Positions 5,515-61,236 of a stretch of 64,000 nucleotides of DNA are shown piece by piece. The DNA comes from Ceratodon purpureus (Eukaryota; Streptophyta; Bryopsida; Pseudoditrichales; Ditrichaceae). The stretch spans positions 104,009,281 through 104,073,280 of the forward strand of contig CM026426.1 in the NCBI GenBank assembly GCA_014871385.1. Direction: 5' to 3'. Position 1 is the first letter of the stretch; each line of letters begins with the position of its first letter. The notes under the pieces were generated by a model. The model was not told the origin of the DNA and searched no databases. It saw nothing but the letters and a program-made list of their open reading frames with translations. The position numbers and the translations under genes are program-made.

Positions 5515-6043
5515 GGAGATGGCTATTTCCCCCGTAGTGGGCGCTTACGTGGCCGGTCCGCCCGCTGGACCGGGCGCTGGACCCGTGCCCCCCGCCCCGG
5601 TTTTACCCCGCCGCCGGTAGGCGGGGTAATTTACCCCGCGCTTTAAAGCCCGCCCCTCGGAACACTGACGTGTGTCCCGAGGGCATGTGTTCTACCCCCT
5701 CCCGAGACATTGGGCATGCCATGGCCATCATGGCCCAAATGCCACGGTCATGGCCATGGCCACTGAAGCCCCCATACACCATCGCCGTGACACTGCGTTT
5801 TTCAGTAGGGATGGACGGTGTTTGCAGCAGGTTAGGGTTTAGGGTCGTTTTCTTTTTTGAGTTCTGGTTGTGTTGTTTGGAGAGCCTAGAGCGCACTGAA
5901 ACCTCGCGAAGTTGATGTCGCATTGAGCTGCGAACAACCAGTTGTTGCAACCGCGACGGTCTAGGGGAGGTACCGCGGACGTCGACGGCTGCATCGATTG
6001 GGAAGAAGAGTGCACGGGTTCATTTGGGGTCTGTGCTCAATGG
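5515..6043 (+). repeat. Left terminal inverted repeat of the MULE (~529 bp)
   Basis: The reverse complement of 60709-61236 over its full length, with only scattered differences. Similarity stops abruptly after CTCAATGG. The outer 120 bp are very GC-rich and hold two self-complementary stretches (CCGGTCC...GGACCGG near 5550-5575, and TTACCCCGCC...GGCGGGGTAA near 5603-5632). Confidence 0.95.
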
Positions 6044-6457
6044 AGGCCCAGCCGAGACCTCATCATTGTCACCTACTCATTTAGGGTTTGTGCGGCATAC
6101 AACTCCGTCGGGACTCACACAACATCATTGCGAAATGTGAGTGACTTCAATGCATTTGTTGGAGACGTCGGTGCATTTGTTGTTGACGCAGTGCCTTCGT
6201 TTTAGGGTCCACGTGTTTTCACAATAGAGCTTTACAGTGTTACGCATCAATGTATTAAGTGTTAGGTTCCTAGGAATCTATTCAACTCTCCAATGACAAT
6301 GCTTGGTATGTTGGCCGTGGCATGTCTAGGGTTTACGGTATAGGGCCGACGTTTAGATCCGAAGGGAGACAATCGTGACATCACCGTGGAACTCACACGA
6401 ACTGTGCCATCGAAGCGTACGTCCCTATCCTCGCTTGATCTAGTTGCATGGCTGCCG

Positions 6458-9400
6458 ATGGATGGGCCGACTCCTACACCAAGTACCCGGTCTCCTGCAC
6501 ATGCCGATGTCGAAACTCAGGAGTCCTCGACGTTGGGACTTAATGAGTTCGGCCGGTCCATGCTTGCATCCATCGAGCGATCCGTCCAGGACCCGCCTAC
6601 GGGAACATTTACATCGAGGGATCTTCTGTGGGTGCTCCAACGTAGGGCACGGCGTGGAAAATACGGTAAGAATCTCGTGGTCCAACAATGTTACATTCCC
6701 ACATCGCGTGTTCCAGATTTTGTGGCAGGTATGCAATCGGGAAAAGACGGAGCTCAATGTGTGTTTCGAGAAACCAAGGAGAAGCCCAAGGCAGAGGCTC
6801 AAGAGAGAGGAGGGCCACGAACCGCTCTGCATTTCTCTAGGTATGCACCTGTACAGATTTCCACCGTTGCGCATCTAGTTATCATGCAATCCAGATCATT
6901 GTGACATATTCTTTGTGTCGTTGTAGGTGGCACTGTGAATATGGACCGGAGGATTTCTAAGGGATTGTAAAACACATCACTACCGACCTCCTACCCAAGC
7001 CAAGAAAGAAATTCAGTGTTTCCTCTTTGCCAAAGGGGGAAGCTCCACCGGGGTCCAGTAAATCACCCCCGGGGAGAAAACAAAGAAAGCCTCCTAGAAA
7101 ATTCAAGCAGAAACCTACACCTCCGCTTGATCTGAACTCTATTCCCGAGGAAGAACCTCTTCCAGTCAAGCGCCGTAGAGCCCCTCGGAAGAAGGCGTCG
7201 ACGGACCTGGCCAGCACAGTATGCCCTTCTAAGGCGATGAGCAAGCATCCGACCCACCTGCGGAAAAGGACTTCTGCAATACCAACGCCCATCCCAAATA
7301 ATGGGTCTGAGAGTGCTGTCGACGGTATTCGAAGTACTGATGGGAGTGATTCAGGCTCACATGACAACGACAACGTAACCGTGAAAACAAAAATTAATCG
7401 TGCACCTAGAAAGAAGAAGCTCCCGGATTTGAATGCCGCGGTTAAGGTCCCAAAATCTCCGAAGAAAGGTTCATCTAAGGGTGTCACGAAGAGACGAGGC
7501 ACTGGAAAGAACCCCAAATCGGTGTCCTCGTCAATGGAGGGGATTGGTTCTCTGCTAACAGACCTTTGTGCCCCGTGGAGTGAACTCCTTCATACACTAC
7601 ACAGTCCGGAAATTCTCAAGGAAGGGTCATTGACAACTGCCGAAGTTCTGGGAGGCTCGGACTAGGATGTACTTTGCGGGTCTGTGTCGTGGGGGGCGGA
7701 ACGAGGATCGCAGTCATGTGATGCCTTCGACTCCTCGCAAACATCAAGGACCGGATTCCCTGAGGTGAGAAGTACTGATGCTATAGAGGGGGCTCCATCT
7801 GCCGGAGATTCTGCAATCCATCAGGCATCAGATTCCATGCACACGGATGTCACGGACTGCGGGAGTCAGACACCGCTCATATCGCACGACGGTGGTGTCT
7901 TCCATGCTTCTGGCTCTATGCAATTCGAGGCTGTCAGCGCTTTTGAGTGTGGAACATCTGATGTGCAGGCATCCGATAGTGTCACGGTTAAGAAAGACGG
8001 CCGTAATCAAAAGAAAGAGAGGGACTCGAAGAAGAAGTGAGGTCTCTCCATAAAGCGGGGATGTACTGCGAGGTTCACAGTTAAAGTTCTGCTCCATGCG
8101 CCACATATTGCGGAAGTGTGTATTTTACAGGGGAAGCACGTAGATGAAAACGGATTTCTTGTTCACGGAGGTCTGAAAATTGGCGACCGTAGTGCTTATT
8201 CAGCCCACCTCTCGCTTGTTATAAAGGAGTTTGTTGACGGCTGCTTGCGAGAGGGATACAACGCTCATCAGATTATGAAGAAGCACTTGAAATGGCAAGC
8301 CGATGGAAAGGATGTCACAAGAGATCTGCTCATAACAAGAAAGGACATACGAAACATATCCCAGAAGCTTGCCAGTGAGACGTACATGCTGAATCCTAAC
8401 GACGCACAAAGCGTACGAATGTGGGTTCAAAAGAATCCGGAGAAGACGTTCTACTACAATGAGACCAACTTAGCTAGTCCTGTCCAGGTGCAGGGGCAAT
8501 TAAACCGGGACAATATGCCCTTCACCATTGGAATCCAAACACCATGGCAGAGAACAATGATGGCACAGCACGGGAATGGAGGCGGTGTGTCAATTGATGC
8601 TACCTTTGGGATAAACAATAAAAAGGTGAGCACTTCATTCTGCCAGATACCTACCTTCTTGCCTGTCTGAGTACTATTTTACTTGTGCATGCAAAGACCT
8701 TCGCAAGTTTCCTTACATACGAGATATTGATGCACTCTAAGATTCCTCTGTGCTGTGACACTAATGCAGTTCCCATTGTACACCTTAATGGTGTTTGATG
8801 AGTGGCACCAAGGGATCCCAGTAGGTTGGGTCCTAACGTCAAGGTGCGGAGAGGAGGACTTAACGCCATGGATGACCGCACTTAACCAGAAGATGGCTAC
8901 CACGTGCCCGGGGTGGAATCCTTCCGCTTTTATTGTTGACTGCGCCCTCGGTGAAATCAATGCGCTGACGTAAGTATCTCATATCACTGCTCCCGGGTAC
9001 ATGTATTACTGTTTCTACGTAGAGGAAGCCAGATTTCTTGAGTGAAAACGGAAGACACTAAATGCGAAAGGCTACGTCCGTCACATCACGTCTGGATCCC
9101 GGCTTTGCTCGTGACACTGTAAAGTAGCAATGCTAGCCGCACAGAAGTTGACCACCACTGAAGCATGCTGTGTCACGACCCGTGCTTGCTGAATCTAGAC
9201 CTCTGTGGCGTACTGGAATTTATTCTTGAATAAATCCTCAAGGGCTTTCTCTCTTAGCGCTTTTTTGTTCTGACATCAACGTCCGTGTTGTGATGGATTC
9301 GCAGGAAGGTATGGCCGCAAACACCGGTGTTCTTGTGCTTGTGGCCACAAACACCGGTGTTCTTGTGCTTGTGGCATGTTCGCCGGGCATGGCAAAAACA

Positions 9401-10507
9401 CTCTTGTTACAAGATTTCAAACATTGCACGACGTGGGGAAGTGCTCCGTGAGCTTGGGCAAATTATGTATGACAGGACTGCTCCACCTGGGAAAGCCTCG
9501 GAGACTTGGGCAAGAGAGAAGTTGGACGCCTTATCTAAAAAGTACCCAGCAGAGAAAGAGTTCTGGAAGTACATGGAGAAGCAGTGGTTGGGGAAAGTCC
9601 AGATGTGGGTTGTTGGTTACCGCAACTTGCCCTATGCAGGTCAGGATACCAATGCGGCTATTGAAGGATATCATGGTTTCCTCAAGTCCATGCTCAAGTC
9701 CGAAAGGAGTCGTATGCACGGCAGGCGTGTCGACTGGACAGTTACTGCTCTCACCGAGGACGTCCATGACCACTACTGGTACAAATCCTTGAGGAAGGAG
9801 AAGGGATTCATCGATAACAAGAAGATGCAGGACTACGCGACATCTTCAATCTTGAAGGCTCGTGACATTCCAGACTCGGACGTGTCGTTTGACCAGGAAC
9901 CAGGGAATTGCGCGCTAGTTACTTCAATGGAGCACCGCCACATACGCTATGTCGTTCACAATCCCGGTGAACAATGGGCAGGGTGTAACTGTATTTGGGC
10001 CCAGAGAGGGAACTTGTGCAAGCATGTAGTGAAGGTCCTGCTAATGTTACGACCGGACATTGCGGAGGGGACCATAGCACGGTTTTGCGGCAAACAAGCA
10101 GGTAATGTCACGGGGGGATGGAAAGGTTACTGCAATGCGAGGAATCCTTCCCCAGTTCTCCGTTGCAAGACTCAAGCCCCGTGGCAACTCCGGTCCAAAC
10201 TCTGGCGTGGACTACGACTACGAATAAAGATCTAAGCGAATCCCTGGTGCAATTGGTGATTACACTATCCAACGAAGTTTACGGGGAGCGACTCCTAATG
10301 GAGCACCTGGTTGCAGATCTAAACCAGGCAGTGGGGAGAGTTAAGGCACTGAAAGCAGAGATGCGGTCAAGGACAGTACACCCACTTGTAGCCTCTCCAG
10401 TGTTACAGACTGTCGAAGACAGTAGGGATTTCAGTCTGGTGCGGGACAAGGACTTCCTTGAGAAGGGATTCAGGCCAGCGTTCAGACGGTTGAAAATGGG
10501 TGTTTAG
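6458..10507 (+). pseudogene. MULE transposase, multi-exon, degenerate
   Basis: Cut-and-paste transposase of the outer element. Exons fit 6458-6840, 6927-8625, 8770-8969 and 9305 to about 10507, with GT-AG introns. The N-terminal part is basic and Lys/Pro-rich. A WRKY/GCM-like segment (KRGCTARFTVKVL, near 8065-8100) follows, then the catalytic region with D in SIDATF (about 8597), FPLYTLMVFDEWHQGIPVGW, and a second D in FIVDCALGEINAL. LCLWHVRRAW, TNAAIEGYHGFLKS and a SWIM finger (CNC-x8-CKH, near 9990-10025) complete it. In-frame stops TAA 6958, TAG 7663 and TGA 8038 interrupt an otherwise continuous frame. A frame change at the G-run near 10108 joins the tail ORF (10118-10507). A 30-bp in-frame duplication at about 9319-9378 repeats WPQTPVFLCL. 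The start at 6458 is the first good ATG in frame. Probably inactive as it stands. Confidence 0.8.
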
Positions 10508-12000: not shown

Positions 12001-12760
12001 GCCAGCGATTTTAGCAACCACAGCTCAAACTGATTTTTCTCCCCGCAGTTCATTGTGTTACGGAAATCGCAGCTTAGAGTGCGGTTTATTAGCCTGTGTA
12101 GGGCAAAAGTTCTTTAATGAATGGACCTAAGTTTTGTAATGAAAGGACCTAAGTTTTGAAATGAAAGAACATGTGTATAGTATGACTGTCTTAATGCGTC
12201 TTCACAATGATCCATACGGGTAGACGCATCTCGGTCAGTGTCACAACGACCCTTCGGGATCTTGGTCATCTGACGTGAATAAATATTTAGTAAGCAAAAT
12301 GCAGTCATGACATAGAGTATTTTATAAAAGCAATTACCGCGATGACATAGTGGCATTACAACTTTACTTCCCCTGATCCTACGTAAAGGGGGATGTGGGA
12401 TCCGAGGAAACTCAGGATAAACCGGAAGAGCCCCATCCGGCGTAAGTATTCCATTAATTTTTCATTTTTTTTGGTTAATTAGGTAAAAACTAGCTAGACA
12501 CTAGCTGTATTAGGAGTTAACACAAACCTGATACTCCAGAAACATTAAAACAGTTAACGCAGGAAGTATTCTCGGAACCTTGAATCCGGAAACTCGGAAG
12601 AGAAAACACGGAACGGGTCAAAGATCCGAGAACTGACCGTTACTGTAACCGCGTCTAGGATCCGAATCGACGCGGAAGTCATCATGACTCGGATAGGCAT
12701 CTAACCCGGTACGGTGGCGGCTGCAATTACGGGCCGCCGCAGCGTTTATTATGCCTGGGG
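12001..12760. other. Non-coding stretch upstream of the orphan gene
   Basis: No supportable gene. Near 12118-12160 a short direct repeat (GGACCTAAGTTTTG) occurs twice. From about 12395 the composition changes to sequence rich in CCGGA/CGGAA words, which I take as the left part of the island carrying the orphan gene. Confidence 0.5.
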
Positions 12761-12768
12761 TATATAAG
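12761..12768 (+). promoter_or_regulatory. TATA-box candidate of the orphan gene
   Basis: TATATAAG lies about 160 bp upstream of the ATG at 12920, leaving room for a 5' leader of about 125-130 bases. Confidence 0.5.
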
Positions 12769-12919
12769 CGAGGGTGTTAGAGTTTGGAGTTCCTTTTTGC
12801 GAACTGGGAGTAGAGAGTGAAAGAGCGGTGAGGTGTTTTTGTCTTTTCCGATTCACCGGCAGTTGGATTGCCGGGTTTCTTGCTGTCGGATCGTAGAGGG
12901 AGAGAAGTAAGGGGTAGAA

Positions 12920-15133
12920 ATGGCGCACGTGCAATGTAGCGTCCTTAGCCCCGGAACTCCGGTGAGGGTATCGGAGATGGAAGAATTGATCATCGACCTC
13001 ACCCGGATGAGGTGTAAGGGATTGTTGTCACGGTCGTGGTTACTGAAGAGTGAGGTGATGGTGAGGGAGGTCCTGGAAGGGCCGGACAATCGGTGGGATA
13101 ACACGATCCGAGGCAAGCCCACGCTATGGAATGCGGAACAGTGGGCGGCAGCTTACGGATTCGAGCAGACCGGGCTCCTTTGGGCGACCCGGACGGATAG
13201 ATACGTGCAGGATAAGTTTCACGGAAAGATCCATAGGAATAATGGATACGAGATAGACGCTTGCAAGGATAGGAGGCAGAGGCAGGTCTTAGCTTTCCTC
13301 GTTCCGATCCTGTATCCGCTGAAACCGGCACAGGTCACCATTACGGTCGGGAACACCATCCTCGGAGCGTACTCAGGAGAACGTCCGGTGAAATGGGCCG
13401 CACTCATGGCGGAAGTGGTGTTGAAGATGGTCCCGGTGATCGGAAAGAAGCCGACCCCGATCTCCCCTTTCCTCTTTCACCTTTACAAGGCGTATGAGTT
13501 GCTGAGCGATAAGGAGGAGGAGACGTATACGGCGGCGACGAACTTCTTCAAATTTTCGGAGATTCCGCCCGGAATGGAACCCGATCCGCGAGGTGAAACC
13601 TCGGATACAGCATCCACGGAAGATGAGGACGATACGAAGGAGGTTCCGAACCCTGGCACTACTAGGGCTCAGTCCAGGTTACGATCGGAGCGGGCTGCGT
13701 CACAGCACGCGGAGCCCTCTACGGCCCGGGGAGATACGGAACGGAGGGAGGTCAGTTCCGAGCGGGGGTTTCCGGTGGAGCTATTCCGGGGGATTCGGGA
13801 GGAGACTCACCGGGCGCAGGCTTCTTACGATCGGATTGAGTCACTGTTCCGGAGGGTCTGTACATTGCTGGGAGGTTGCTTACCGGAGGAGGTGATCCGA
13901 GAGGTGGAATTGTTGAAGGACGCCCCGAAACTTCGGAGTGAGAAGAAGCAGCTGGAGCTTCAGTTGCAGGAACTGACGAAGGAACTGGCGGCGAAGAGTG
14001 AGGAGATCCGGAAGTTCCATGCCGAGCAGGAGGAGACCTTGGGGGAACTTCGGATGTTGGTAGGGAGTTCGGGTGCGGTAATCAACAAGGCCCGGCTGTT
14101 TGATGAGAACGTATTGCAGCCGGCCGACTTCGAGAACAAGCAGAGGATCATTCTGATCCTCTCCAAATGCGAGCACTCGATGAACCTGATCCTGAAGAAG
14201 GTTCGGCAGCTGCTCAATCCGAGTACCGGAAGCCCGAGTACTGTATTCACTGGTCGGAGCCTTCCGCTCCCCGGATCTCCCTCTCGGGCCGTTGTAGGAG
14301 AATCCCGAGGGGTAGGGTTCCGAACCCCGATAGGGAGTAACCTCCAAGTCGAGGAGCGGGTGACAGTCGACGCGGACACCGTTATGACGAATCGGACGAT
14401 CGCGGAGATGATCCGGGAAGTCCAAGCGCAGGCGGCGTCACCCGGAACCAGTACGGTCCAGCAGAGCTGCGCGATTCCCTCCGGTCAGGCGGAAATTACC
14501 GGAACTACAGTCACCGAGAGGCAGATCGAGGAGAGGACGGTTATGGAGCAGGTGACTCGGTCCGTGCAGCCGGATGTTCTTCCGCGACTCGGAGAGGAAG
14601 TGATCATTGCGAATTACCGAGGGGAGGTAGCGGGAACGGAATGGGGACGAGCCATTTCACCACCCGGACGGACCCGGGTGACTCAGGAGGGGGGACTTAC
14701 CCCTTCACCCACAGCCGAGACCGGAACGGTGACGCCTACTCCCACCGGAACGCCAGCAGCGGATTCCCCTTCAGACAGTGTCGGTGCTCGGAGAACTTTG
14801 CGGAAGAGGAAGGAGCCGACGGAGAAGGCCACCATTACGATTTCAGAGTCCGACTCGGAGACTTATGAGAGCTCTCCGGTTGGGACAGCCGGAACTGGGA
14901 CTCGGACTCCTACGACCGGAACCCCTCCCGCACATATGATCCCGAAGTCTCCTAAGTCTCCCAAGAACCGGATCGTTACCCGGTTGTCCTTGGAGGCTCA
15001 GGCGAGGGAGTCAAAGGCGGAACGGAGTGCTAGGCGTAAGGCGGAGCGAGCAGCAGGAGTGGGCGGATCAGAGCCGCGGGTGACCAGGTCGAAGGATCGC
15101 GAGCAGGAGAGCCACAAGAAGACAAAGAAGTGA
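12920..15133 (+). CDS. 737-residue orphan protein with coiled coil, unknown function
   Basis: An uninterrupted 737-codon ORF with a TATA box upstream. Residues 1 to about 205 look like a compact, mostly helical domain with many aromatic and basic residues (WNAEQWAAAYGF, QVLAFLVPILYPL). A low-complexity acidic/basic linker follows. A coiled coil spans about 325-380 (SEKKQLELQLQELTKELAAK). The tail is Thr/Pro/Ser-rich with basic, Lys/Arg-rich stretches near the end (KAERSARRKAERAAG), suggesting nuclear or nucleic-acid binding (inference). No catalytic motif is visible. It resembles the layout of a gag- or mobile-domain-like transposon protein, but I cannot assign a family. It lies in a CCGGA-rich island unlike the surrounding MULE DNA and is one of the few long intact frames in the window. 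Confidence 0.6.
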   Translation: MAHVQCSVLSPGTPVRVSEMEELIIDLTRMRCKGLLSRSWLLKSEVMVREVLEGPDNRWDNTIRGKPTLWNAEQWAAAYGFEQTGLLWATRTDRYVQDKFHGKIHRNNGYEIDACKDRRQRQVLAFLVPILYPLKPAQVTITVGNTILGAYSGERPVKWAALMAEVVLKMVPVIGKKPTPISPFLFHLYKAYELLSDKEEETYTAATNFFKFSEIPPGMEPDPRGETSDTASTEDEDDTKEVPNPGTTRAQSRLRSERAASQHAEPSTARGDTERREVSSERGFPVELFRGIREETHRAQASYDRIESLFRRVCTLLGGCLPEEVIREVELLKDAPKLRSEKKQLELQLQELTKELAAKSEEIRKFHAEQEETLGELRMLVGSSGAVINKARLFDENVLQPADFENKQRIILILSKCEHSMNLILKKVRQLLNPSTGSPSTVFTGRSLPLPGSPSRAVVGESRGVGFRTPIGSNLQVEERVTVDADTVMTNRTIAEMIREVQAQAASPGTSTVQQSCAIPSGQAEITGTTVTERQIEERTVMEQVTRSVQPDVLPRLGEEVIIANYRGEVAGTEWGRAISPPGRTRVTQEGGLTPSPTAETGTVTPTPTGTPAADSPSDSVGARRTLRKRKEPTEKATITISESDSETYESSPVGTAGTGTRTPTTGTPPAHMIPKSPKSPKNRIVTRLSLEAQARESKAERSARRKAERAAGVGGSEPRVTRSKDREQESHKKTKK

Positions 15134-16228
15134 TAGATTCCTCTCGCTGCCACTGGCCGTAACTTTCCGGATTTATAGGAGTAGATTTCGGATCAGGAGA
15201 TCCGGTCTAGTCGTAACGTAGAACTCTAGGTAGATAGTTAGGGATTAGGGTTTTGATTGAATTACCGGCGCCGCCGCTTTTGTGAAAGCCCCTGCTTACT
15301 TAAACAGGGCAGGCGATGCGGTCAGGGTCTTCGTTTTTGCATGTTTTCCCCCTATATTCCTTATCAGTAAAGTATTCGTGTTTTGCAAGTACTGTGCGTG
15401 ATTTCCCGCTAAGTGTGAATGATCCGGGAAGGATATGAGAGTTCCGCTGTAGCTCTGATAGGAAGGTGATGGGAGTTGTGACGAGACCCGAACCGGAAAG
15501 GAAATGGGATTGAGCGGAAAGATTTAGCGGATTGTCGTAGGAGTGAAGCCTCACTGTTCCGTCCCCAAACCAACCTCCTACGGAATAGCCGTCGCTAGGG
15601 TCGAAGCGGATCAAGGGGTACTTGGTCGGGCTCCCTGAACTTCTGAAGAGGTTCCGTGCACAGTGACGGGGGGAGTCGGAACGTGGTACGGGTCGCCTAG
15701 GGATAATCGGATCCTGGCTCTCCCAGATCCGGATTGGTTTGTCGTTGTAGTCTCACGGATCGGAGAGGATCGTCTATGTGACCTGCTGGCCAGAGTACTC
15801 TAGGACAGTTGTGAGACGGTAACTGATCCGAGACGTTGGGGTTTGTGGACGAAACACTTGATGAGAGAGAGGAAGAGAGAGAGAGATAGTTAAGGAGTTA
15901 CGTTCCGAAGACACTATCCGAGCAGTGGCAAGGCTCGGAATGATTAGAAGTAACTACTTGGCGAAACACTATTGAATCCCTAGACGATACTCGGAACCTA
16001 GTGACAATACGGAAGTTTACGCTCAATTAGAGTGCTATCCGGATGTTAGTTGCGTTTCCGTGTTCCGACAGGGGATCTTGCTCTAAAATCATAATTCTGT
16101 TCCTACAGTTCGTGCAAAACTCTAGCCTGTCTTACGGCCGTGGTCACACGCTATAGCTTCTTCAGTGCTCTTGTTCTACGCTTTGGTGCAAGGGCACTCT
16201 CATCATGCATGAGGAGGCCAGCGTCATT
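15134..16228. other. Non-coding 3' region of the orphan-gene island
   Basis: No supportable gene. CCGGA/CGGAA-rich composition continues to about 16080, including a GA-rich tract near 15860-15890. I looked for a second copy of the 12400-12920 sequence (an LTR) and saw none. After about 16080 the sequence resembles the rest of the MULE again. Confidence 0.5.
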
Positions 16229-19200
16229 CTATTGCGTAGGATTTTTGTGTTTCAAGGGACAGAAAGGAGGAATGTACCTAGAGTCCCTAACAGTGGGGTC
16301 TAGTTCCTTCGCAAGTAGCACCATCATCTCGATGTTGAAATCTCTAATGTTGTAAGGTTACAAATAATCTTCACAGACTTGCACTATCTTCGCTGTCGGG
16401 TCCTTCGCCCGGTCCTATGAAGCAATCAAGTCCACAGAGGCTAGAGGTTAGTGTCATGGACCCACAGTGTCACAGATAATTCTGGAAGGATGTATCGCTC
16501 TCAGCGTCCCACCTCTAAGAAGTACTCACCTTCAGGTATAGCATGGCATTGCGTATGGACAAGTGGCCGCACTCGTTGTTCCCAGTTTGCTGGGTGACTT
16601 CGACCGTGACAACGTCTTCAATTTCTTGCCTAGGTTCGCCAAGAAGGCAGTGCCAGGCCCGTGACAAGGAACGCCAGAAGTCCAAATGAATCCCTGCCGG
16701 TTTGTGGAACTTACCTTTAAAGGAGTCAAAGTGAAGCAGCGTAGTCGGTTGAAGAACAAGAACCGACCAATGGTCGCAGGCCACCCACGGTATCATGAGG
16801 TCCGTGACACTCCGTGGATCCACACCTGCCGGGGGCGTCATCCATTTGCGCGCAAACTTTTCCAATTCATCGGGTCGGTCCATGATTGCGGGAAGGGTGG
16901 AAGTGACATAGGAACTAACAATGTGGACGTGGGCGGGCAAGTTCTCACTAGCAGCCCATACTAGCCGTGACATTGCAAAATCCACAATGTCGTTTCCAAG
17001 GCGCGTTTTAACATGCTTCAGGTCTCGGATAGCCTTGTGTTTGACTATTACATCCTTCCCGCATTGGTTGAAAAATACAGTCTCCGGTTTCCGAATAGAA
17101 CCCTCTCCACCTTGCGCTACTCTCTTTAAGAGGTCATCTACCTTCAATGTGCGGTAAACCTCCTCCAAAGAGGAACCTGGGAATTGAACTTCGCCAACAC
17201 CGCGCTCAGTCCCGGAAGGTGGTCCGCACGGCCTACTCTTTTTGGGTGATTCTTTTGTTGTTTGACCTGAGGACGTCATGATAGGCTTCACGATCGTCTC
17301 CACGTCGTCGGGAGGTTGTGATAGGCAAATCAACTGCTCGACAGCCTCACAAGCGCCGTCTTTCTGGAACTTCTCGGATAGATTTAGAGGGCAGTTGTTG
17401 AAACCTTCATCGCTAGAGACTATATCCGGGGAACGTGCGCACAAGAGTGATACTCCGTTGGCAGGGGTAACTGCAACAGGAGCCGAATTTCCATTTATCC
17501 ACTGGAACAACGTGCCCTCAAACTTGGGTGCCACCACATCGACCCCTTCGACGCCTTCCACGCTCCGCATCACCTGTGTCACGGTCATACATGGTTCCTC
17601 TATCGGTGATGCACGTTTGGCCTCCATGCCATGCTCTATCTCGGGAAACAATGTCGCAACGGGACAGTGCTGCGAATGGTGTCCCTTGTGCACTTCGACC
17701 CGGTCATCATTGACACTGCGTAATGTTACAACGAAATCAGATGCCGTTGGCGTATCAGTCGCTGTGTCACGTGCCTCTGCGCTGGCACAGGTACCCCGCT
17801 GGACATCCGCAGGGTATCCGGGTCCGTCGAAGGTGTAGGGATTGTTTCTGTCAGCTTCTCCACCGCTAGGTTCGCCCGCTCCCGGATCAGTGTCACGGCC
17901 TTCTATTTCTAGAGCGTCTGTGCTCGTCACAGTAGCTGCCACCACCGGTCTCACGGGATGTACCTCGCTGGATATGGCTACTTGCGAGTCGGTTGGGTAA
18001 GTCCCTCCAACTGTGACACCGCCCTCCTTATCTCTCTCTACAGCGGCGGGTTCTTCACATACGTGAGACGAAGCCGTGTGTATTGGAGACGAGAGTATTG
18101 CAGTCAATGTCGGTTCTATCGTCCCAGATTCTCTCAAATCAGAGGGGGTACTGTCGTCCTCGGTGGCGCCTTCAAGCGACAGAGAAAGATGAATGTCAGG
18201 CGGGTGTCTCGGGACTTCAAAGGAAGTGTCGGATGCAACACCTACAAGACGCGGAGGGACGTCGGTGGGTTGCAGTGCACAACCGTCTTCATTGCTTTGT
18301 CCAAACTTCGGATCCAGCGATTTTGAAATGCGCGTCTCCTCCGGCTGATGAGAAGAGAGCCATTGTTGACCTGCTTCGACATGGCCTCTTTCGTGACACT
18401 GCCAGTGTGCCTCATCTTCATGTCTTGTTGTCGCCGCAATTTTACCAACAAGTCGACGGATGTCATTACGGAGGGATGCCACTTCACCGCTGCAAGAAGG
18501 AGTGTAAGGTCCGGGCACCCACCCAATGTCACGCTCCTCTCTCGTGCGCAGCGTCGTCAACCAAGGTTCCCACTGTTCAGCCCAGTGACATAGACTTTTT
18601 GCACACCACGCCTGGTCAAATTGAAACGAGCTAATGGCGGCGTGGTCTTGCAGTGCCCGGAATTGTACGTTCCTGACCCACCTCATCGCATCCCGTATGA
18701 AGTCGTCGCCTTCTCCACATCGGATTGCAGTGATCACTGATTTCAGGCGATGGAGTGCAACTTGTCTTCCTTCAAGCCCCGCATCTGCAAAGTAGATGTG
18801 CCCTTGATAGGCAAACATGGCGACGGCCCGCATGATCCGCTTCTCCTCTCTACAGGCGTCAAAGATAATCTCTTCCGACACTCCGTACAAAGGACACGCG
18901 AGTTGACGAAAGGGACCGTACTCATACAAGAAGTATATCTTCAAGACGTAAACAAGGGATGGAGGTTCCGCTGGACATGCTCGCCTCTGCAGAAGTCGTT
19001 CACGCACTACTCGGGACTCAGGCACTGTGGAAAATAAGGGTGTAAATGTCACGTTGCGTATCCCGGATATACAAGGACGGAAGCGAGCAAGAGAAGTGAA
19101 ACCAACAGAACCAAGCAAGGCAACCGGCGTAGAGAACTCACGGTCGTGTGCCCATGGCAGAGACAGTAGATCCCCCAAAACATCCGGGTTGTCCATGAGG

Positions 19201-21487
19201 ATTTGCCAAAACGGGCACCAATCCCATAGAATTTGCTCTATTGTCCAGGCGTGCTTCGCCCTGAATTCCGCCATTGCAATTTGAAGGTCGGCTGTATTCT
19301 CCGCTTCGACTCTTTCCTTGAACTCCAAATTCTCCTTCTCGTATGCTGCATAGTCTTTTACCCATTGGACATACGCGCAGAGATCGTCCAGCTCTGGATA
19401 TGGCTCCTTCACGGTCATGCTTGCCACAAGCTTCTCCATACTTTTGGAAATCCGATCCCGCACTGCCTTCAAGTTGGTCTGTAAATTTTTGTCCACCTGC
19501 ATGTGGAGACAAGGAAATACTTCTAAGCCCAAGGCACGAGAACACATTTGTACGAGGTCTGGCCAACCACCAAAAGCATGCTAAATTTATGAAGAGCTAT
19601 ATGGGGCCTGGAAAATTAGTGTCCCCGTCTCATTTTTAAATCAGTGGGGTTGTTCTTGGTGTAACTTACGTTTTTAGCAGTCCACCACCAAAGACAGCCC
19701 ATGAGCGATTCTTGGAATGGTCCTCTTAAGAAGGTTGAATCCCACTTCCGTCTGAAGTCGTCCCCCCCGTCACAATCCCACGACCATGGCAGCTCCACAG
19801 CGTCCTCAAATGTGCGTAGATAATATAGGCCGGGCATGGGTGGTTCCATTGGCGGTGCGGGGGGTTGTAATTTTGAGAGTCTATCATCGGATTTAGATTG
19901 TGCCAATGACAAATGTACTTTTTCAAAGTCACGGAGGACTTCCTCGCGCGCCAGTAAAGTACCTTCTAGTTCAGGATGGAACGTGGACGGGTTTGGTGTT
20001 CGATGCCCCTCGATCCAATATTGCGTTAACCGTAGATTCGTTGCAAATTCAACCTCCCATGTAACCATGCTGGAAATTGCTTCCTCGATGGTGACGTCTT
20101 GCGCAAACTTCCTTGCAGTGTCACGGGTCACGGCTGCATCGTTTTTGCCAGTGAAAGCCACCATTTCTCCAGCTTGCTTCGTTCCCGCAGCATACTCTTG
20201 AAAGAAAGGCTCGGCCTGGCAGTCCTCATCGTTGCCTGTGGCGGCCAGAAGTTCTCCGAGCTTGTCTTGTGGGAGAAGGGGCGCCTTTACCGGTATCCCT
20301 ATTTTCCTATCCGCTCCACGCCTCCCCTGTTGTGCAGGAGGGACCGTCACGAGGTGGGCAACTCCACTGCTCCCACCTCCCTTGCCCTTCCTAGGGAGCT
20401 TTAGCTTCATCGCACCCCCTCTTCGTGTCTCCGACGGCTCAGCTTTTGCGGTGTCATTGCTGTTGGGTGCTCTGACGGGTAGGGTCCTCTCCTCGGCCTG
20501 GTGATTAGCAGCACCCATCGACAACGGCATTGACACCCAGGCTAAAGTGTCAAGCCCTTCGCAGTCGAAGGTCGTCGTCTGCCGTGATAAGGTGCAAGGC
20601 GGAATCGCGTCCCGCTTTGTGTCTTGACGCTCAAGGACGGAATTAACATGCGCACTGTCTGGTTTGAATGTCACGTGACATCGAGACCTCTTGGATCTCC
20701 GCACCGGTTCCGCCTCGTCTTCCGAGTCGTCTCCACTTAATCTCTTTCCCGTGAGCATTTGTCGATTTCCACCAATCTCTACAATATCCTTCGCGTTACC
20801 TTTGCGCTGCATCACCTGCGTCCCACCGTGACTCCCCTTGCCCTTCGGCACAGCCACAAAACCGGATTTAGAGGTCCTCCCAGTGACCTTGCCATTCTTG
20901 GGAGGGGGTGCGAGACCACAAAGGACATCACCTCCTGGACCAACAGTCGGCCCTGAGATTTCCCTTCCTGGTCCCGTGACATTGCCCCGCTTCCTTGTGG
21001 CCAACACGGCGTTCTGTAAATTGTCACGAGTATTGAAGGCATCATCACAAATATCCCGCTTCACTGGAATTCCCACTGTCTCAGAGATAGTACGTTCTTG
21101 TAGAATCTCCGGGATCGTCAAGGGTCCCGTGACTCCCTTCACCAAGCTTTGCACCATCTTCCCCTGTCCCGGTAAGAAATCTGGGTATGGAAGCAGTAGT
21201 GCTTGCCTCCCGTCGGTTTACTTTGCTTCTGGACAGCCGTCTTCATATCTGTGCTGGTTCAGCCTGAGCTTATTGCTGAAATTGTCCTTACCACAGTAAA
21301 TGCAGACAAAGTACCTACGGTTAGCACCTGGCTTCTTATCCCCTTTGCACTTCGTTGCAAATTCAAGCATGAGCTCCTTAACTTTTTGTTGGTCTGGATA
21401 CTGAACGTTGTAACATCGTTCGTAAATCTTCACCAGCAGTGTCACGGAACCCGTCTCTACCAAGTCTCCCTCCTTGCAACGTACCAT
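16229..21487 (-). pseudogene. Zinc-finger/Ulp1-type (C48) cysteine peptidase gene, copy A
   Basis: One minus-strand gene read as exons 21487-19670, 19496-19142, 19024-16530 and a last exon ending at the stop at 16229. Introns of 173 and 117 nt have GT-AG ends. Exon 1 carries a C2HC finger (C-x2-C-x13-H-x5-C, in CIYCGKDNFSNKLRLNQHRY). It then has CG-x-APP-x-KN-x-K and ends CLWWWT. The C-terminus is an Ulp1-like peptidase with His in DHWSVLVL, Asp in LLHFDSFKG, and Gln-x5-Cys in QQTGNNECGH, so the triad is intact. Ulp1 enzymes process or remove SUMO-like modifiers; the substrate here is unknown. TAA at 21218 replaces a Tyr seen in copy B. The last exon (FNIEMMVLLAKELDPTVRD) matches copy B, but I could not join it in phase. 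About 1,600 codons in all. The KAONASHI-like link is by gene type only. Confidence 0.75.
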
Positions 21488-22597: not shown

Positions 22598-22687
22598 CAT
22601 TATCGTTGCAGATGGCACTGTGGCATACTCATTATCGTTGCAGATGTCACTGTGGCATACTCATTATCGCTGCAGATGGCACTGTGA
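22598..22687. repeat. 32-bp tandem repeat, ~2.8 copies
   Basis: The unit runs CATTATCGTTGCAGATGGCA plus CTGTGGCATACT and repeats at 22598, 22630 and 22662 with one- or two-base changes. It marks the right limit of the MULE-like DNA before composition becomes AT-rich. Confidence 0.85.
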
Positions 22688-25060: not shown

Positions 25061-25083
25061 CACCAAGGCAGAGATGCGTCAAA
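25061..25083 (+). repeat. CACTA left TIR (23 bp)
   Basis: Begins CACCA rather than CACTA (one transition), then matches the inverted right end except for one further base. Confidence 0.9.
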
Positions 25084-26040: not shown

Positions 26041-26087
26041 ATGAAAATGTAACACAGTATGGAATTCATAACGACATTGTAAGAAGC

Positions 26088-30471: not shown

Positions 30472-30483
30472 GGCTGCACGCAA

Positions 30484-39212: not shown

Positions 39213-39235
39213 TTTGACGCATCTCTGGCTTAGTG
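39213..39235 (-). repeat. CACTA right TIR (23 bp)
   Basis: Ends ...TTAGTG; its reverse complement begins CACTA. Flanked by CTC at 39236-39238. Confidence 0.9.
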
Positions 39236-54945: not shown

Positions 54946-57900
54946 TTACTCTTCTCCCCCACGGAATGCGAGTTGTCCTCCTTCCATCAACAGTGTACAG
55001 TCCTCTCCATAATGTGGATCCGCGTTCGTCAGGGGGCAGAAGGGAGGCGGTAGGCGTTTGTCCCGGAGGGTGGGGCTCAACTCCTTAGACAGCAACACCA
55101 AAATCTCGATGTTCATCTCCTTCGCAGAGGTTGGCTTAAGCAATGCCTCGTACCCATCCACTGACGTCGATATCGTCGTCCGGTACTGGAAAAAAAAAAA
55201 CAGTCCCGATTCACGGTCACATTAGCTGGTTTCCAATGTCACGCCGATTTGAAATATGTTCCAAGTAGGAGAGGATACTAACTAGATAAGATGGAAGGGC
55301 GTATTCACGGGTAGTAGTCCCTTACCTTAAGATACATAATGACATTCCGGATGGTGAAGTGCCCACACTCATAGTCCTCCGGTTGCCTGAACACTGGTAC
55401 AGTGACGACCTTCTCAGCATGGTCCGGTTGCACACCTCGAAGGCACTGCCACGCATTTGATATCCATCTCACAAAATCCGCGTGCTCTCCATTCGGATGA
55501 TGGCTACTGCCGGCAGTGGAATCCATATGAAAAACGGCTCCAGTCCGGAACACTAGGACGCACCAGTGTCCCTCGCAAACCCAAGGAAGAATTAAATCCC
55601 GAACCTCTGTGGCATCTACACCCGGCGGCGGCTGCAACCACGTCAAACCAAACCTCCGAACATCTGCAAGGCTGTGTATCGACCCTCGCCAGTGCCCACT
55701 AACCCTGGAACTGACTATATGTATTTCGTGACGTTGCCTACCCGGGTATGTAAGATATACTCGTGACATCACGAAGTCTACAATATCATTACCCAGGCGG
55801 GTCCTAAGCCTCTTCAACCCCCGGATGGCCTCGTGCGTGACCTCCAACTCCTTCTTACAGTGAGTGTAGAAAACAGTTTCTGGTTTTCTAACGGTACCTT
55901 CTCCTTGCCCCGGCAACTCAGCCAGTAGCTTCTCTAACTTTAAGTACTCGTACACTTCCTCATAAGCGCTTGTCCTCATCGCCTCCATTGCCGTTGCCCT
56001 TTATGCCAAGATCGCCGGGTGCATTCAACAAGCTCGTCTGTACCGTTGGAGACCTAACTGAAACCACCCAGTCCGCTAGAGTAGCTTCCTCTAATGGGAC
56101 GCCCGTCACTCCACTTTCGTTGGCCCCGCGCTGTGTTTCTTGAAAATGAAGACAAAGTCCAGTACTCTCACCTACCTCTCCAATCTGCACCGAGGTGGTA
56201 CATTGCACTATGCCAGTACCACCCGCAATGCTGCCCTCCGCGACCAAGGGCATCTGCTCCCACCTCTTGTTTGCTCTTCCTCCTTCTGAGACCCCCCTGT
56301 ATGGTCCCGTCCCTTGCATCCGATCCACAGTCGTATGTGGCGCCCTCAGAGCGTCTCGATCTTCGTGGTCATTTCTCGAGACACTAATCCCGAATGGGAT
56401 TGAACTCAGTGCACCAACGACCGCGTAACCCCCCACTAGTGGTGTCACCCTTCCTCCAATGCCGTGCTGGTCGGAACCGTCGCGCCGCTCAGCTCCCCCC
56501 TCTTTTACATCCCTGTCTTCATGCCGTTTGTCCCACTCAATGATGTCTTCATCCCTTGTCCCCTTTGCAAGCCTCTCCGCTGTGTCACGCATCGTCCTCC
56601 GTAGCGACACTACTTCTGCACTACCCGTCTTCGTCAGTGGACATGCAATCCACTCCAGATCCCCATCCTCCCTCTTCAACAGAGTTCTAACCCAGTGTTT
56701 GGCCTGCGACTCCCACGCAATGTATTTCGACGTCGTCCACGCCTCGTCAAAGTCATCAGGGCTAGCCGCAGCGTAGTCTTGCAATGCCTTCTTTTGAGTG
56801 ACCTTCACCCAAGTCAGCATCCCATTGAAGAGGTAGTCACTGCGTCCCTGTCTGACAAGAGTGGCCTCTACCTGTAACCGGCGAAGGAGATCGGCTGGTT
56901 CGAACCTCCCTAGAAAAGCGCAGAAGTAAGGGCCGTGAGTGACAAGGACATTTAGAATCCTGGCCATCCTGAACTCGTCCATGCAAACATCGCGGATTAA
57001 GTCCGTCGTGATACCGTATACTGGACACGAGATAGGTCGGAACATCCCGTATTCTGTCGTATAAAACATCTTCATGGCAAAAAGCAATAGAACGGGCTCA
57101 GCAGCAGTCACTCGATCCCTAAGCAAGCGTCGTCGCACCTCCCGAGATTCTATTCCTGGCATTAGGGACAGAAACAAAAGTGTGTTAGTTTCAGCTTACT
57201 GACGTGCGTATGTGAGACTAGAATTGGAGAGTCGATGTCGAAGACGGAAAGTTGACCTTTGAAAGTGGAGAGAAAGTCAAATTAGCAATCAAGAATTGTA
57301 TCCCATGCAAACATAGTGTCCTTGCATTTACACGCCATAGGTTTAAGTCATCGCGCTCACCGTCGTGACACCAAGGAGTCTCCGGTAGACTGCTGTAGAC
57401 GTCATCACTGGCAGCGAAAACCTGCGAGAGCGGAGACCAATTTCAAACAATCTTCTCCCTTAACCGTGCACTCTTCTTTTGGAAAGTCACCCTTGCTCGA
57501 TCGACTACGGTTTTCCTCTCATTCTCTTCCGCTTCCATCCGTTTTGACATCAAGGCCTCGTAAGCAGCTAAATCCCGGGTGTACTGGAAGAAGTTGCACA
57601 ACCCTCCAACCTGTGAATATGGCTCCATCCTTGTCCGACAAGCAACAAGAGTCTCAATTGCCGCGGAGACCTCCTCATGCACGGCCTTCATATCCTCTGT
57701 CATGGCCTTCTCTCCCTACACATAGACGATGCAAAAGTCAAGGGGGGGGGGGAGGGGAGGTTGTGGGGGGTTGTGCGGTAGAATTAATAATCGTCTGTAT
57801 AGAACACCTACTCCTTCAGGCCTACATCAAAGCCTTGTAGACATAAACCAGTGTCACAGTCCGGATTTCAATGTCACCAATGGGGTCGTCCTCTCTAAAC

Positions 57901-59926
57901 AATGCACGGTCTCCAGTGGGGATTCGGGACTAACCTTTCTGACTGTCCACCACCACAGACAATCCCTGAGCTTAGCCTCAAACTCCGGCTTCCAGTAATG
58001 CTCCTCCCACCTCCTCCGAAAGTCTTCTTCATCGTGAGCCTCCCAAGTCCAAGGCAGGACCGCATCTGCGAACATATGTAGAGACCCTAAACCTGGTGTA
58101 AGCGGCCTCTGTGGAGGGGGCGAATATTCCACTGTTTTGATTTTTTCATCGAAGGCAGATTGAACTTCCTGTACGTACGTCTCCTCAAATGTCTCCATTT
58201 CCCTATGTCTAGCATCAAGGACGCCCTGGACCAAGTCGGTATAAAAGTACGGCATAGGGATCCCTTCACCTTCGGCCCACCACGTACCCATCCGTGAACC
58301 TCTGTCACTGTCTCTCTCCCACACTGTCACGGCAGCGATAACATCAGCAAAGCGACTGTTGTACACTCCGGGTTCAGTGGTGGTACTTTCGACTGGCACG
58401 GATGCTGAATCCATAGTCTCATGTCCATTCCCAATTCCGGATTTCTCCCCAACGACCTTGACCTCATCCTCAATAGCCATATGCATGTCATCCTCTACGG
58501 GATGTTCTAGTTCAGTCTGTCTCAGTGAGTTGATGACCGGTGTGTCCTCCTTTACTCCGTGTAGCAACATAGGAGCGGTGGCGTGATACTCCACTGCCAG
58601 TCCATCATCACTCACGAAGTTGGCGTCAATGTCACGACATTCATTGAACCCCTCCACCACCTGCTTGCCCATTTCGCGGAGGCGGTACTCCTCTCTCAAG
58701 GCCCGAGCAGCGCCCATACCTGCCGCAATCGGGAACTCCTCCTCCAATGTTTTTTTCTCTTTCTGATGCACCCGGATGAGGTCACCAGCCCACTCCCGGA
58801 TTGTAACCTTCGACCGAGACTTCGTCTTCAGTACACTCGCTGAGCCATCCTTTGCTTCCACTGGACTTGCTCCCCGCAAATCGTGGTACGGGGACGGTTC
58901 AACCTGTGGCCGGAACTGGTTCTCTTCGGCGGATGGTGTCACGGGATCCCCGCACATAGGCAAGGGATCTTTCGTTGCTGGCTCCACGTCAGGTGGGAAA
59001 ATCACATCACTAACATCCCCCCTGCCTTCTCGTTTTCGCTTGTTATCGTTTGTAGATATCCCAATCCCCCCTCGCTCTCCACGTGGGTCAGTCTGCGCTT
59101 CATCATCTATAGAGAGATTCGGGTGGTGGTCAGTAGAAGTCCCTCCCGGTGGCCCCCCCTGAAATGCCCCGTGAATGTTACAATTCACGCGAAGTCTCTG
59201 AACGGCAGCAATGCGTTGCTGAACGGTTCCCTTTGATGCGCCACCCCGCACTGGATCCTTTTCAACCATACCCGCATTGTTGGCTTTCACCGGATCCCTG
59301 GAAGGTGATTCCCTCGCTGCAGCATCCTCCGCTCTCTGCCCTCCCTGTGGACTCTTCCTATTTTTCCTAGGAGGTGCACGGCCACAGAAGATATCTGTAG
59401 AGGGTGTCACGAGTTGGAAGGTCCCACCGTCAGGAGCCTCCGTAGCCCTCGTTTTCACCTTCTTCTTAACTGGCGCAGCATTTCGACATGGAGCAAGGTC
59501 ACTGTCACGTAGCAATTCTTCACTTCCTCCCGTACGGTGTCCTTCATTGTTGTCTCCAATGTGCTGCCCTTCCGAGAAACCCAACAACTGGTGCAGGGTC
59601 CGGCCCATGTCTTCGACAATCTTCCCTTGTCCCGGAAGGAAGTCCGGGTACGGAAATAGAAGGGCCCTAGATCCATCTGGGTAGAGCGCCCCGTCGCAAC
59701 CTTCCTCGTACCTATGTTGATTCAGCATTAGCTTACCCGAGAAGTTGTCCTTCTCGCAGTGTATGCAGACGAAGTAACGCCGGTTCGCTGGAGGTGGCTT
59801 CAACTTCCCTTTGCAATGGGTTGCAAACTCCAGCATCAACTCATCTACCTTGCGCTGGCTAGGGTACCGCACGTCGTAATGGCGATGGTAGATGCTAACT
59901 GGCAATGTCACGGACTCGGACCCCAT
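54946..59926 (-). pseudogene. Zinc-finger/Ulp1-type (C48) cysteine peptidase gene, copy B
   Basis: Exons 59926-57935, 57715-57361, 57155-55326 and 55185-54946, all with GT-AG introns. Exon 2 is 355 nt, exactly as in copy A, and intron phases agree. Exon 1: C2HC finger (CIHCEKDNFSGKLMLNQHRY), then YPDFLPGQGK, the CG-x-APP-x-KN-x-K motif and a final DCLWWWT. Exon 3 ends in the peptidase: His in GHWCVLVF, Asp in VFHMDSTAG, Gln-x5-Cys in RQPEDYECGH, an intact triad. Last exon MNIEILVLLSKELSPTLRD matches copy A. Defects: TGA at 57443 where copy A has Trp, and a one-base frame change at 55960-55988. About 1,470 codons. The start at 59926 agrees with the copy A alignment. The protein halves differ clearly from copy A, so the duplication is old. 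Confidence 0.78.
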
Positions 59927-60708
59927 CTCTTCTCAAAGCAGAAGCCAAGAGAGTCAAATGTCACAGCTGATAGCGGAGCCCCGGACCCTGGATCAATGTC
60001 ACAGAATACTGCAGTTGTTGTTAATCACTCTAAACACTAATCCTACGGCCGACAGCATTCCGCTTCGCAGGTGTCACCTCTACCTTCTAGAGAACTATAA
60101 GCATGCAAAGACCCTAAACCTAGGTTGTCCAAAAACTGAATTACTTAACCCTAAATGGAAATGCGCAAACTCCACCCCATGGAAAGTACTGTACATTGGA
60201 TAGCCGACAGCAAGAACTAACGGATCAAACAAAATCTGTAATCAAACAGTACCTCGTGCGCTTCTCTGATGATATCACAGTGACCACCGTTGTCCTGTTT
60301 GCGGCCCTGACCAGCAGCGACAATCAGCAACCCCGTAGACGCAGAGCTTCCTTTCGCCCTGAACATTAGCACTCTCCAACATAGTGAACATGCAATGCCA
60401 GAAATTAGGGAAAACGTTAACCCTAATCGAGACATTCAATCAGCATTTCGGTTTAGGTTTACGAGACACACTTCCATCTGAAATCCTAAGTGCGTAGTAA
60501 CTAGAACAGATAAGGTGTAGCATAACCCGGACGACCTCAACAAATTCAGGATAGCCTGAGAGGTAAGGAACAAGGTGCTGGTGGGCATGGACAAGTACCT
60601 AATGCTCACCTTGTACACTAACTTGGTAAGTGAATTGCAGGTCCGCTCTCCAAAACATCACAATATGCACCGACTTCTCCTTGCTCGACCAACAGTTCGT
60701 CCCCATTG
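59927..60708. other. Upstream region of copy B, no gene
   Basis: No convincing ORF. Several AATGTCAC/GGTGTCAC motifs lie within 150 bp of the ATG of copy B. The stretch ends where the right TIR begins. Confidence 0.45.
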
Positions 60709-61236
60709 CCATTGAGCACAGACCCCAAATGAACCCATGCACTCTTCTTCCCAATCGATGCAGCCGTCGACGTCCGCGGTACCTCCCCTAGACCGTCGCG
60801 GTTGCAACAACTGGTTGTTCGCAGCTCAATGCGACATCAACTTCGCAAGGTTTCAGTGCGCTCTAGGCTCTCCAAACAACACAACCAGAACTGGAAAAAG
60901 AAAACGACCCTAAACCCTAACCTGCTGCAAACACCGTCCATTCCTACTGAAAAACGCAGTGTCTCGGCACTGGTGTATGGGGGCTTCAGTGGCCATGGCC
61001 ATGGCCGTGGCATTTGGGCCATGATGACCATGGCATGCCCAATGTCTCGGGAGGGGGTAGAACACATGCCCTCGGGACACACGTCAGTGTTCCGAGGGGC
61101 GGGCTTTAAAGCGCGGGGTAAATTACCCCGCCTACCGGCAGCGGGGTAAAACCGGGGCGGGGGCACGGGTCCAACGCCCGGTCCAGCGGGCGGACCGGCC
61201 ACGTAAGCGCCCACTACGGGGGAAATAGCCATCTCC
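60709..61236 (-). repeat. Right terminal inverted repeat of the MULE (~528 bp)
   Basis: Reverse complement of 5515-6043. An outward-reading 115-codon ORF is open in both copies with about seven amino-acid differences; I treat it as a by-product of the repeat. Confidence 0.95.

Follow-up and report, generated by a model that had tools for sequence, protein, structure and literature searches.

A degenerate, nested-into giant MULE with two protease-like genes in the moss Ceratodon purpureus

The window, a stretch of 64,000 nucleotides on contig C6 of the Ceratodon purpureus assembly, contains a MULE copy with long terminal inverted repeats (TIRs) and a flanking target-site duplication (TSD), whose features are listed in Table 1. 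In a BLAST search of the window against itself, positions 5514-6043 pair with 61237-60709 on the minus strand over 529-530 bp at 97.5% identity (12 mismatches), and the outermost 62 bases are the same in both TIRs. The 9-mers adjoining the copy, CATGTGTAG and CACGTGTAG, are identical at 8 of 9 positions. The initial annotation had proposed these bounds, a 9-bp duplication, ends that share an inverted 42-base start and stay alike for about 528 bp, and a MULE transposase within the left end; its coordinates are exact, the shared start is longer than described, and the transposase gene can be mapped, in decayed form, where it was expected. With a DDE transposase inside, a 9-bp TSD and TIRs of this length and identity, the copy has the attributes of the MULE superfamily, for which a TSD length of 8-11 bp is given (PMC6446971). 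The assembly offers no empty allele of the window copy, with a single CAYGTGTAG, because neither 500-bp flank has a match there other than itself.

Table 1. Features of the window copy (positions within the window; C6 coordinates in brackets)
Feature	Position	Strand	Basis or remark
Left target-site duplication, CATGTGTAG	5506..5514	+	sequence; 8/9 same as right flank
Giant MULE copy, 55.7 kb	5515-61236 (C6:104,014,795-104,070,516)		inverted repeats and flanking 9-mers
Left TIR, ~529 bp, terminus GGAGATGGCTATTTCCCCCGTAGTG	5515..6043	+	BLAST of window against itself; genome matches
MULE transposase gene, exons about 6919-8625, 8777-8969, 9342-10503	6919..10503	+	BLAST from C10 copy
Nested insertion 1, 3,676 bp, 6-bp direct repeat GGGGAT	12395..16070		copy comparison
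MULE core segment with gene X1	16071..23487		89-97% identity to other copies
Gene X1, Ulp1-like protease domain at 16530-17168	16522..21462	-	sequence comparison; lesions in window copy
Nested insertion 2, 14,175 bp, CACTA-type, inverted match of 23 bp at the termini, 3-bp direct repeat CTC	25061..39235	-	
Unoccupied insertion site of giant copy C (59 kb long, located at C6:18.44 Mb), one CTCTGGATAC	25151..25970	-	copy comparison
Nested insertion 3, 14,675 bp, 4-bp direct repeat AAAT, holds hAT transposase	39346..54020		
Gene X2, X1 paralogue	55322..59930	-	sequence comparison; decayed in window copy
Right TIR	60709..61236	-	sequence and BLAST of window against itself
Right target-site duplication, CACGTGTAG	61237..61245	+	sequence

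The transposase gene runs inward from the left TIR. Relative to an autosomal copy of the family (C10 copy), which spans 22.5 kb and in which each of the three genes has a long open frame, the window version carries three in-frame stops and two frameshifting indels. The last 652 aa of the protein spliced from the C10 copy match the Pfam model MULE PF10551 (1.3e-12; 48.4 bits, cut-off 27.6) as well as the ZSWIM1-3 RNaseH-like (2.6e-8) and SWIM (6.8e-4) models; splice sites in the gene models were placed by eye.

The two remaining genes, X1 and X2, differ in their placement, X1 being internal and X2 being read from the right TIR towards the interior. X1 comprises an N-terminal CxxC..H..C zinc-finger-like region, a long middle part and a C-terminal Ulp1-like domain with H-D-Q-C residues; the protease domains of X1 and X2 are 46% identical. 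In the C10 copy, both proteins are open, measure ~1,400-1,600 aa and end in the Ulp1-like (SUMO-protease-like) domain. The scores of this domain are weak but consistent: with Pfam C48, X2 reaches 20.3 and 18.8 bits and X1 14.0 (cut-off 20.7), the NCBIfam search gives a sub-threshold match only, and the whole X1 ORF of the window has no Pfam match up to E 10; the AlphaFold model of the domain is poor (pLDDT 50.8). The top PDB matches of a profile of eight protease domains are the Ulp1-like SUMO protease 6dg4 (0.0017) and SENP8 (0.0073), and H133, D148, Q194 and C200 are invariant among the eight. The C-termini can be regarded, with reservation, as putative Ulp1-like cysteine protease domains, and a separate Ulp1-type gene is likewise assigned with reservation because Pfam scores lie below the cut-off and the window X1 ORF yields none. 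Relatives of X2 number one (P0116) among 7,996 candidates scored, and relatives of its head three among 8,000. Comparison of the C10 copy with those on C6 shows purifying selection on all three genes; dN/dS between the C10 and the window copy is 0.14 for the transposase and 0.30 and 0.34 for the two X genes.

Three nested insertions totalling 32.5 kb have enlarged the window copy from 23.2 to 55.7 kb, the core without them amounting to 23,196 bp. Their sites are empty in the covering regions of copies B, C and D; a diverged relative of insertion 1 (81.6%) resides at a different site in copy D. Insertion 2 contains a DUF4218 match and a sub-threshold DUF4216 match, insertion 3 DUF659 and Dimer_Tnp_hAT matches. 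The hAT and CACTA genes and a kinase-like ORF (39988-40875) were considered as cargo and rejected, because they are located in nested inserts that are missing from B, C and D. The core segment that holds X1 is common to copies B and C and occurs in D as interrupted fragments, at the identities given in Table 1. A ~2-kb segment that C and D have in common is absent from the window copy, which seems to have lost it, and since this segment may have belonged to the core, the unit size is put at 23-25 kb. The ~55.7-kb MULE of the initial annotation thus stands as to class and bounds, whereas the mobile unit occupies roughly 23-25 kb and the rest is later nesting; the earlier figure of ~27 kb without nested elements has to be lowered to the computed core, or to about 25 kb if the C/D segment is included.

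Searching the same assembly (362 Mb) with the TIR gave 42 candidates, of which 40 were scored and 37 lie on C6, probably a moss sex chromosome (U or V). The terminal-motif pattern has 92 matches, versus 0 for the reversed-pattern control. Neighbouring termini (at most one mismatch) within 100 kb form 37 pairs, 36 of them facing (+/-) and of the same family, and some termini have no partner inside this distance. Twelve giant-family TIR pairs were examined: eleven have both ends, separated by 11-83 kb, and in pair K a recognisable right end is not present. All eleven two-ended pairs are flanked by matching 9-10-bp direct repeats, which are perfect in six (B, C, F, G, H and M) and imperfect in five (A, D, E, I and J, from 7/9, the weakest, to 9/10); this tally is confined to the twelve pairs, seven termini viewed singly without partner and nine further TIR matches lying outside it. 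In a control of 90 mismatched pairings of sister-family ends, the flanks match at 5 of 9 positions at most. Giant-family units were thus inserted with 9-10-bp target duplications, and the inverted pairing of the TIR elsewhere in the genome, named beforehand as a check on the element, is the rule. The internal 23.2 kb is collinear, orientation included, between the window copy and copies B and C, D and E being truncated versions. A clean empty site of copy C, with its target sequence in single copy, is present inside the window itself, at about 25.15-25.97 kb.

A diverged sister family of ~16 kb shows perfect 9-bp duplications at all ten pairs fetched and possesses the convergent transposase-protease pair as well. 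Among 127 scored transposase matches, 88 have a protease-domain match at a distance of 12 kb or less; all 88 are convergent, with about 1% expected.

We conclude with high confidence that the interval represents one copy, now degenerate and invaded by other transposons, of a family of giant cut-and-paste MULEs, whose mobile unit of about 22.5-25.6 kb carries the transposase, X1 and X2; for a MULE, the element in the window is unusual in both its large size and its gene content. The unit has TIRs of ~0.3-0.5 kb beginning with GGAGATGGCTATTTCCCCCGTAGTG, and its DDE transposase, which is of the MULE/ZSWIM type, includes a SWIM finger and is read inward from the left TIR, would bind to both long TIRs and move all DNA between them. 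One might instead suppose that the two ends belong to distinct, smaller MULE copies or are solo TIR fragments, and that they face each other by chance 55 kb apart, with ordinary repeat-rich DNA in between, as the partnerless termini and the predominance of other transposons in the interval would allow. Yet the TIR recurs mostly in facing pairs of one family while the reversed-pattern control is empty, and chance facing is for this reason practically discounted; the matching flanks of every two-ended pair and the collinear core of the copies argue in the same direction. Hardly more probable is movement of the full 55.7 kb, nested elements included, as a truly >50-kb mobile unit. Several family members of 51-83 kb do have TSDs, and the C/D segment could be a travelling insert, although it may equally be core; the three inserts of the window, however, carry their own direct repeats and have empty sites in the other copies, the C10 copy is only 22.5 kb long, and no large nested insert is common in position to any two copies compared (A versus B-F, B versus C-F and A, C versus D-F, D versus E-F).

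As to X1 and X2, we infer that their products serve the element itself. Proteins with a zinc-finger-like N-terminus and a Ulp1-like cysteine protease at the C-terminus would most likely strip SUMO (or a related modifier) off silencing or transposition-complex proteins at the element DNA, a role that may be likened to that of the Ulp1-bearing VANC (KIU) genes of VANDAL MULEs, a group marked by anti-silencing activity of sequence-specific kind. That they are integration or transposition-complex helpers similar to MURB, rather than anti-silencing factors, deserves serious consideration while falling short of an even chance: convergent genes that run inward from two TIRs recall MuDR, and the zinc-finger-like N-terminus suggests DNA or protein binding, yet a protease domain is not known to be part of MURB. 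It is unlikely that both genes are mere passengers, i.e., host Ulp protease genes captured in the manner of Pack-MULEs and playing no role in the life of the element. Capture of host fragments is known for MULEs, and one account describes the Ulp1 domains of flowering-plant MULEs as transduplicated (PMC13317346); the dN/dS values of the X genes against the C10 copy and the recurrence of the convergent pair at 88 scored places and in the sister family speak against idle cargo. The element was also compared with Pack-MULEs as a class, which hold host-gene fragments and no transposase of their own, and this assignment was rejected on the grounds of its own transposase and a cargo dN/dS of 0.30-0.34.

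Among the known systems, MuDR (Mutator) of maize is about 4.9 kb long and has long TIRs, a 9-bp TSD and two genes, mudrA and mudrB, that converge from its two TIRs. The moss element resembles it in its long TIRs, 9-bp TSD and convergence of the transposase and a second gene from the two TIRs; it differs in its unit of 22.5 kb, in a second gene that ends protease-like and in a transposase that also matches SWIM/ZSWIM1-3 models. DUF1985 is part of KIU proteins; a Pfam scan of four ORFs of the window, up to E 10, gave no match to it. The KIU/Kaonashi, VANDAL-type and other Ulp1-bearing MULEs of Arabidopsis, melon, rice and grapevine likewise combine a MULE transposase with a Ulp1-type protease gene, the Ulp1 region of the grapevine elements being reported to run either with or against the transposase (PMC2528002). 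The KIU-carrying Arabidopsis MULEs are described as non-TIR, with Ulp1 capture placed near the monocot-eudicot split (PMC13317346); unlike them, the moss family has long TIRs (529 bp in the window copy) and two protease-like genes. Large TIR-bearing MULE families are also found in grapevine, i.e., Mutavine-1 (17.7 kb) and Mutavine-18 (16.2 kb, marked with an ULP-1 region), which are smaller and for which the source table gives no TSD (PMC2528002), whereas the moss units of 22.5-25.6 kb have TSDs and two protease-like genes. Like Teratorn, Polintons/Mavericks and Helitrons, the moss unit exceeds 20 kb, the length used in a review of giant transposons that counts the internal coding region only (PMC6431247); those elements are virus-linked, self-replicating or rolling-circle, whereas the moss element is a DDE MULE with no replication or capsid gene among its Pfam matches. 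No account of the giant family was found in the titles and abstract openings of the papers that the literature searches listed, although it may already have been described.

The efficacy of DNA transposition is reported to fall above 6 kb of cargo, and artificial constructs of 100-200 kb were nevertheless moved (PMC6431247). Here, ordinary MULEs whose unit measures about 22-26 kb and includes three selected genes have left target duplications at 11 sites; given these features and an open autosomal copy, the size question is therefore open to study in a natural element, and the ~16-kb sister family provides a natural comparison for the contribution of the second protease gene. Since MULE transposases and Ulp1-like proteases are repeatedly paired in moss and also in flowering plants, such elements appear to have targeted SUMO-linked control more than once. 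More doubtfully, a lineage of autonomous bryophyte MULEs with TIRs may have built zinc-finger-Ulp1 anti-silencing (deSUMOylating) proteases independently of the flowering-plant Ulp1 capture; one branch would then have duplicated the gene and exceeded 20 kb while still moving by cut-and-paste, which would make it one of the largest DDE elements known to move in this way without viral parts, with copies accumulating on a non-recombining moss sex chromosome. Both the giant and the sister family lie above the 30.5% share of C6, and the giant family is weakly enriched on this contig relative to the sister family (Fisher p 0.22 for pairs, p 0.02 for termini).

The giant MULE inserts as a unit and duplicates a target of 9-10 bp. 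The window's own copy (copy A) is bounded by inverted repeats of ~529 bp that are 97.5% identical on sequence comparison, with the outermost 62 bases identical, and is abutted by CATGTGTAG at one end and CACGTGTAG at the other, which match at 8/9 positions; the span of 5515-61236 put forward in the initial annotation is thereby exact. That annotation had also called for a genome search with the TIR. Among 42 candidates found with the 528-bp probe, 40 were scored, 37 of them on contig C6, two on C10 and one on C11; by length alone, the chance of at least 37 on C6 is 3e-16, counting termini rather than insertion events. Inspection of the ends covered 31 of the 40 matches: 24 as 12 candidate pairs, and seven (N, O, P, Q, R, S and T) as single termini. 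The search bore out the pairing: 11 of the 12 pairs have both ends, and all 11 have flanking repeats of 9-10 bp, which are perfect in copies B, C, F, G, H and M, match at 8/9 positions in A, D and I, at 9/10 in E and at 7/9 in J. For the twelfth pair, copy K, a right end was looked for and not found. Copy sizes range from 11.3 to 83 kb, and a probe from the interior of the family matches strongly at 13 places, of which 12 are on C6 and one is on C10, and weakly at four.

An empty site is available for copy C (59.1 kb, C6:18.44 Mb): its flanks, joined with one copy of the duplicated 10-bp target CTCTGGATAC, align through the joint to 25.15-25.97 kb of the window, inside the nested CACTA element; a one-base gap right after the target reflects one flank base missing from the query slice. 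When an empty allele of copy A was searched for in the assembly with both flanks, these matched themselves only. The window is part of C6, which comprises 110,524,308 bases, 30.5% of an assembly of 362,488,568 bases in 151 contigs; the length of C6 presumably fits V. C6 is probably the U or V sex chromosome of Ceratodon purpureus, whose genome is put at 360 Mb in a review, with U and V >100 Mb apiece and ~30% of the total (PMC8000587).

Much of the length of copy A is due to three nested inserts (table), without which alignment with copies B, C and D leaves a core of 23,196 bp. All three insert sites are covered in B, C and D, where the inserts are absent; copy E covers none of the sites and copy F the first. 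Near-bare units are found in copy B (25.6 kb) and in copy H on C10 (22.5 kb). At position 23.48 kb of copy A, C and D have ~2 kb in common, where copy A has 6 bp and copy B another 3.2 kb. Judged from these alignments, the segment would be core lost from copy A, and the unit would then measure ~25 kb; alternatively, C and D may share an insert here. A diverged relative of the first insert (81.6%) lies at a different place in copy D. Matching ends were looked for in the 14.7-kb third insert, and none were found.

Nested inserts of copy A and features within them (window positions)
Feature	Position	Length	Edge direct repeat	Content
Insert 1	12395-16070	3,676 bp	GGGGAT (6-bp)	740-aa ORF without convincing Pfam match
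Insert 2	25061-39235	14,175 bp	CTC	CACTA-type; 23-bp terminal match; DUF4218/DUF4216-like ORFs
Arrays in insert 2	near 30.5, 32.4, 33.1, 36.8 kb			~22-bp tandem repeats
Insert 3	39346-54020	14,675 bp	AAAT	
ORF in insert 3	39988-40875			protein-kinase-like, slightly under Pfam cut-off
Gene in insert 3	42422-45874, minus			hAT transposase
Array in insert 3	47270-48139			143-bp x 6 tandem repeat
ORFs in insert 3	49459-52088, minus			three long ORFs without convincing Pfam match

Gene models were drawn by eye in one assembly from copy H, which has open genes. The spliced transposase has 1,032 aa, of which the last 652 match MULE, ZSWIM1-3 RNaseH-like and SWIM domains; its best match among database proteins comes from Ceratodon, in a separate assembly (66% identity, 76% query cover). 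The paralogous genes X1 (at least 1,576 aa spliced) and X2 (1,417 aa) each combine a head of CxxC..H..C type, recognized by eye, with a Ulp1-like tail; the two tails of the window are 46% identical. Invariant in eight aligned tails are His133, Asp148, Gln194 and Cys200, which we take to be the counterparts of the Ulp1 catalytic residues, and the best matches of the tail profile among solved structures are a Ulp1-like protease (E 0.0017) and the SENP8 protease (E 0.0073). The tails are likely rather than certain to be proteases, because the Pfam C48 scores (20.3 and 18.8 bits for X2, 14.0 for X1) are below the cut-off of 20.7, the whole X1 ORF of the window has no Pfam match up to E 10, and the predicted structure of the domain is poor. 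Among the matches listed for the X protein (best ~8,000 candidates) are four relatives (P0116-P0119), all of them on short contigs.

All three genes are under selection. Between copies A and H, dN/dS is 0.14 across 1,021 codons of the transposase, with 0.06 in its exon 3, 0.30 across 1,546 codons of X1 and 0.34 across 1,363 codons of X2; D and E, truncated in X1, were left out for that gene, as was F for the transposase, which lies outside the fetched part. Compared with H, every scored C6 copy (transposase, A-E; X1, A, B, C and F; X2, A-F) has stops and frameshifting indels. H itself is necessarily free of lesions, as the gene model was built on its frames; the 5-7 indels of X2 in every C6 copy scored may partly reflect this H-based model. 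Ratios among close pairs of A-E run from 0.14 to 1.15, as expected when decay follows insertion.

The transposase would act on both TIRs, transcription may start from the TIRs, and the X proteins could carry out deSUMOylation at the element DNA. An anti-silencing function of the X proteins is a plausible if tentative reading; a role as helper of the transposition complex is possible and somewhat less likely. Arabidopsis VANC proteins are described as binding motifs in non-coding DNA of their own family, leading to loss of methylation (PMC5735166), and a Ulp1 domain is reported in some of them (PMC13317346). The giant unit has the MULE features that could be compared: a MULE-type transposase, long TIRs and target duplications of 9-10 bp. 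Because its gene content is like that of KIU-type MULEs, whereas their TIR-less ends are missing and the KIU-type feature DUF1985 was not found up to E 10 in the four window ORFs scanned, the unit may work like these elements rather than belonging to them. Its size is a step beyond rather than a new order, as grapevine MULE families are described at up to 17.7 kb (PMC2528002); the large DNA elements treated in a review of giant transposons include Helitrons, Polintons and Teratorn, with Pack-MULEs given as ≤7 kb (PMC6431247).

A degenerate form of the terminus, with one mismatch allowed, occurs at 46 forward and 46 reverse places (reversed control, 0), and in 36 of 37 neighbouring pairs of termini within 100 kb the ends face each other and belong to the same family. 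This count leaves out copies C and J, in which one terminus is different or has more mismatches. The end GGAGAAGGCTAAATCC is found in 27 pairs, 17 of them at 15.5-16.6 kb and the largest at 51.7 kb. These form a ~16-kb sister MULE family, possibly recently active: all ten fetched pairs have perfect 9-bp duplications, and 90 mismatched pairings reach at most 5/9. Members were found on C1, C2, C3, C4, C5, C6, C8, C12 and C13; the C4 element has a single protease gene in the part that was fetched.

Probes for the transposase (best 127 of 798 candidates scored) and the protease domain (best 150 of 416) place a protease match within 12 kb of 88/127 transposase matches, convergent in 88/88; within these scored lists, 39/127 transposase and 62/150 protease matches are unpaired. 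With a probe for the X2 head, a scored transposase lies within 60 kb at 41 of 56 places, convergent at 40 of the 41. Since this convergent pairing recurs, transposase and protease together make up an old, selected unit. The family in the window looks like one branch of it, with an additional protease gene; its X2 runs inward from the right TIR. Equal or nearly equal transposase or protease probe scores, with open frames, were seen at C3:11581789, C7:12292519 and C12:1168428, and likewise at C3:24630360, C3:24848689, C68 and C87; such groups may represent more two-gene families whose near-identical copies moved recently.
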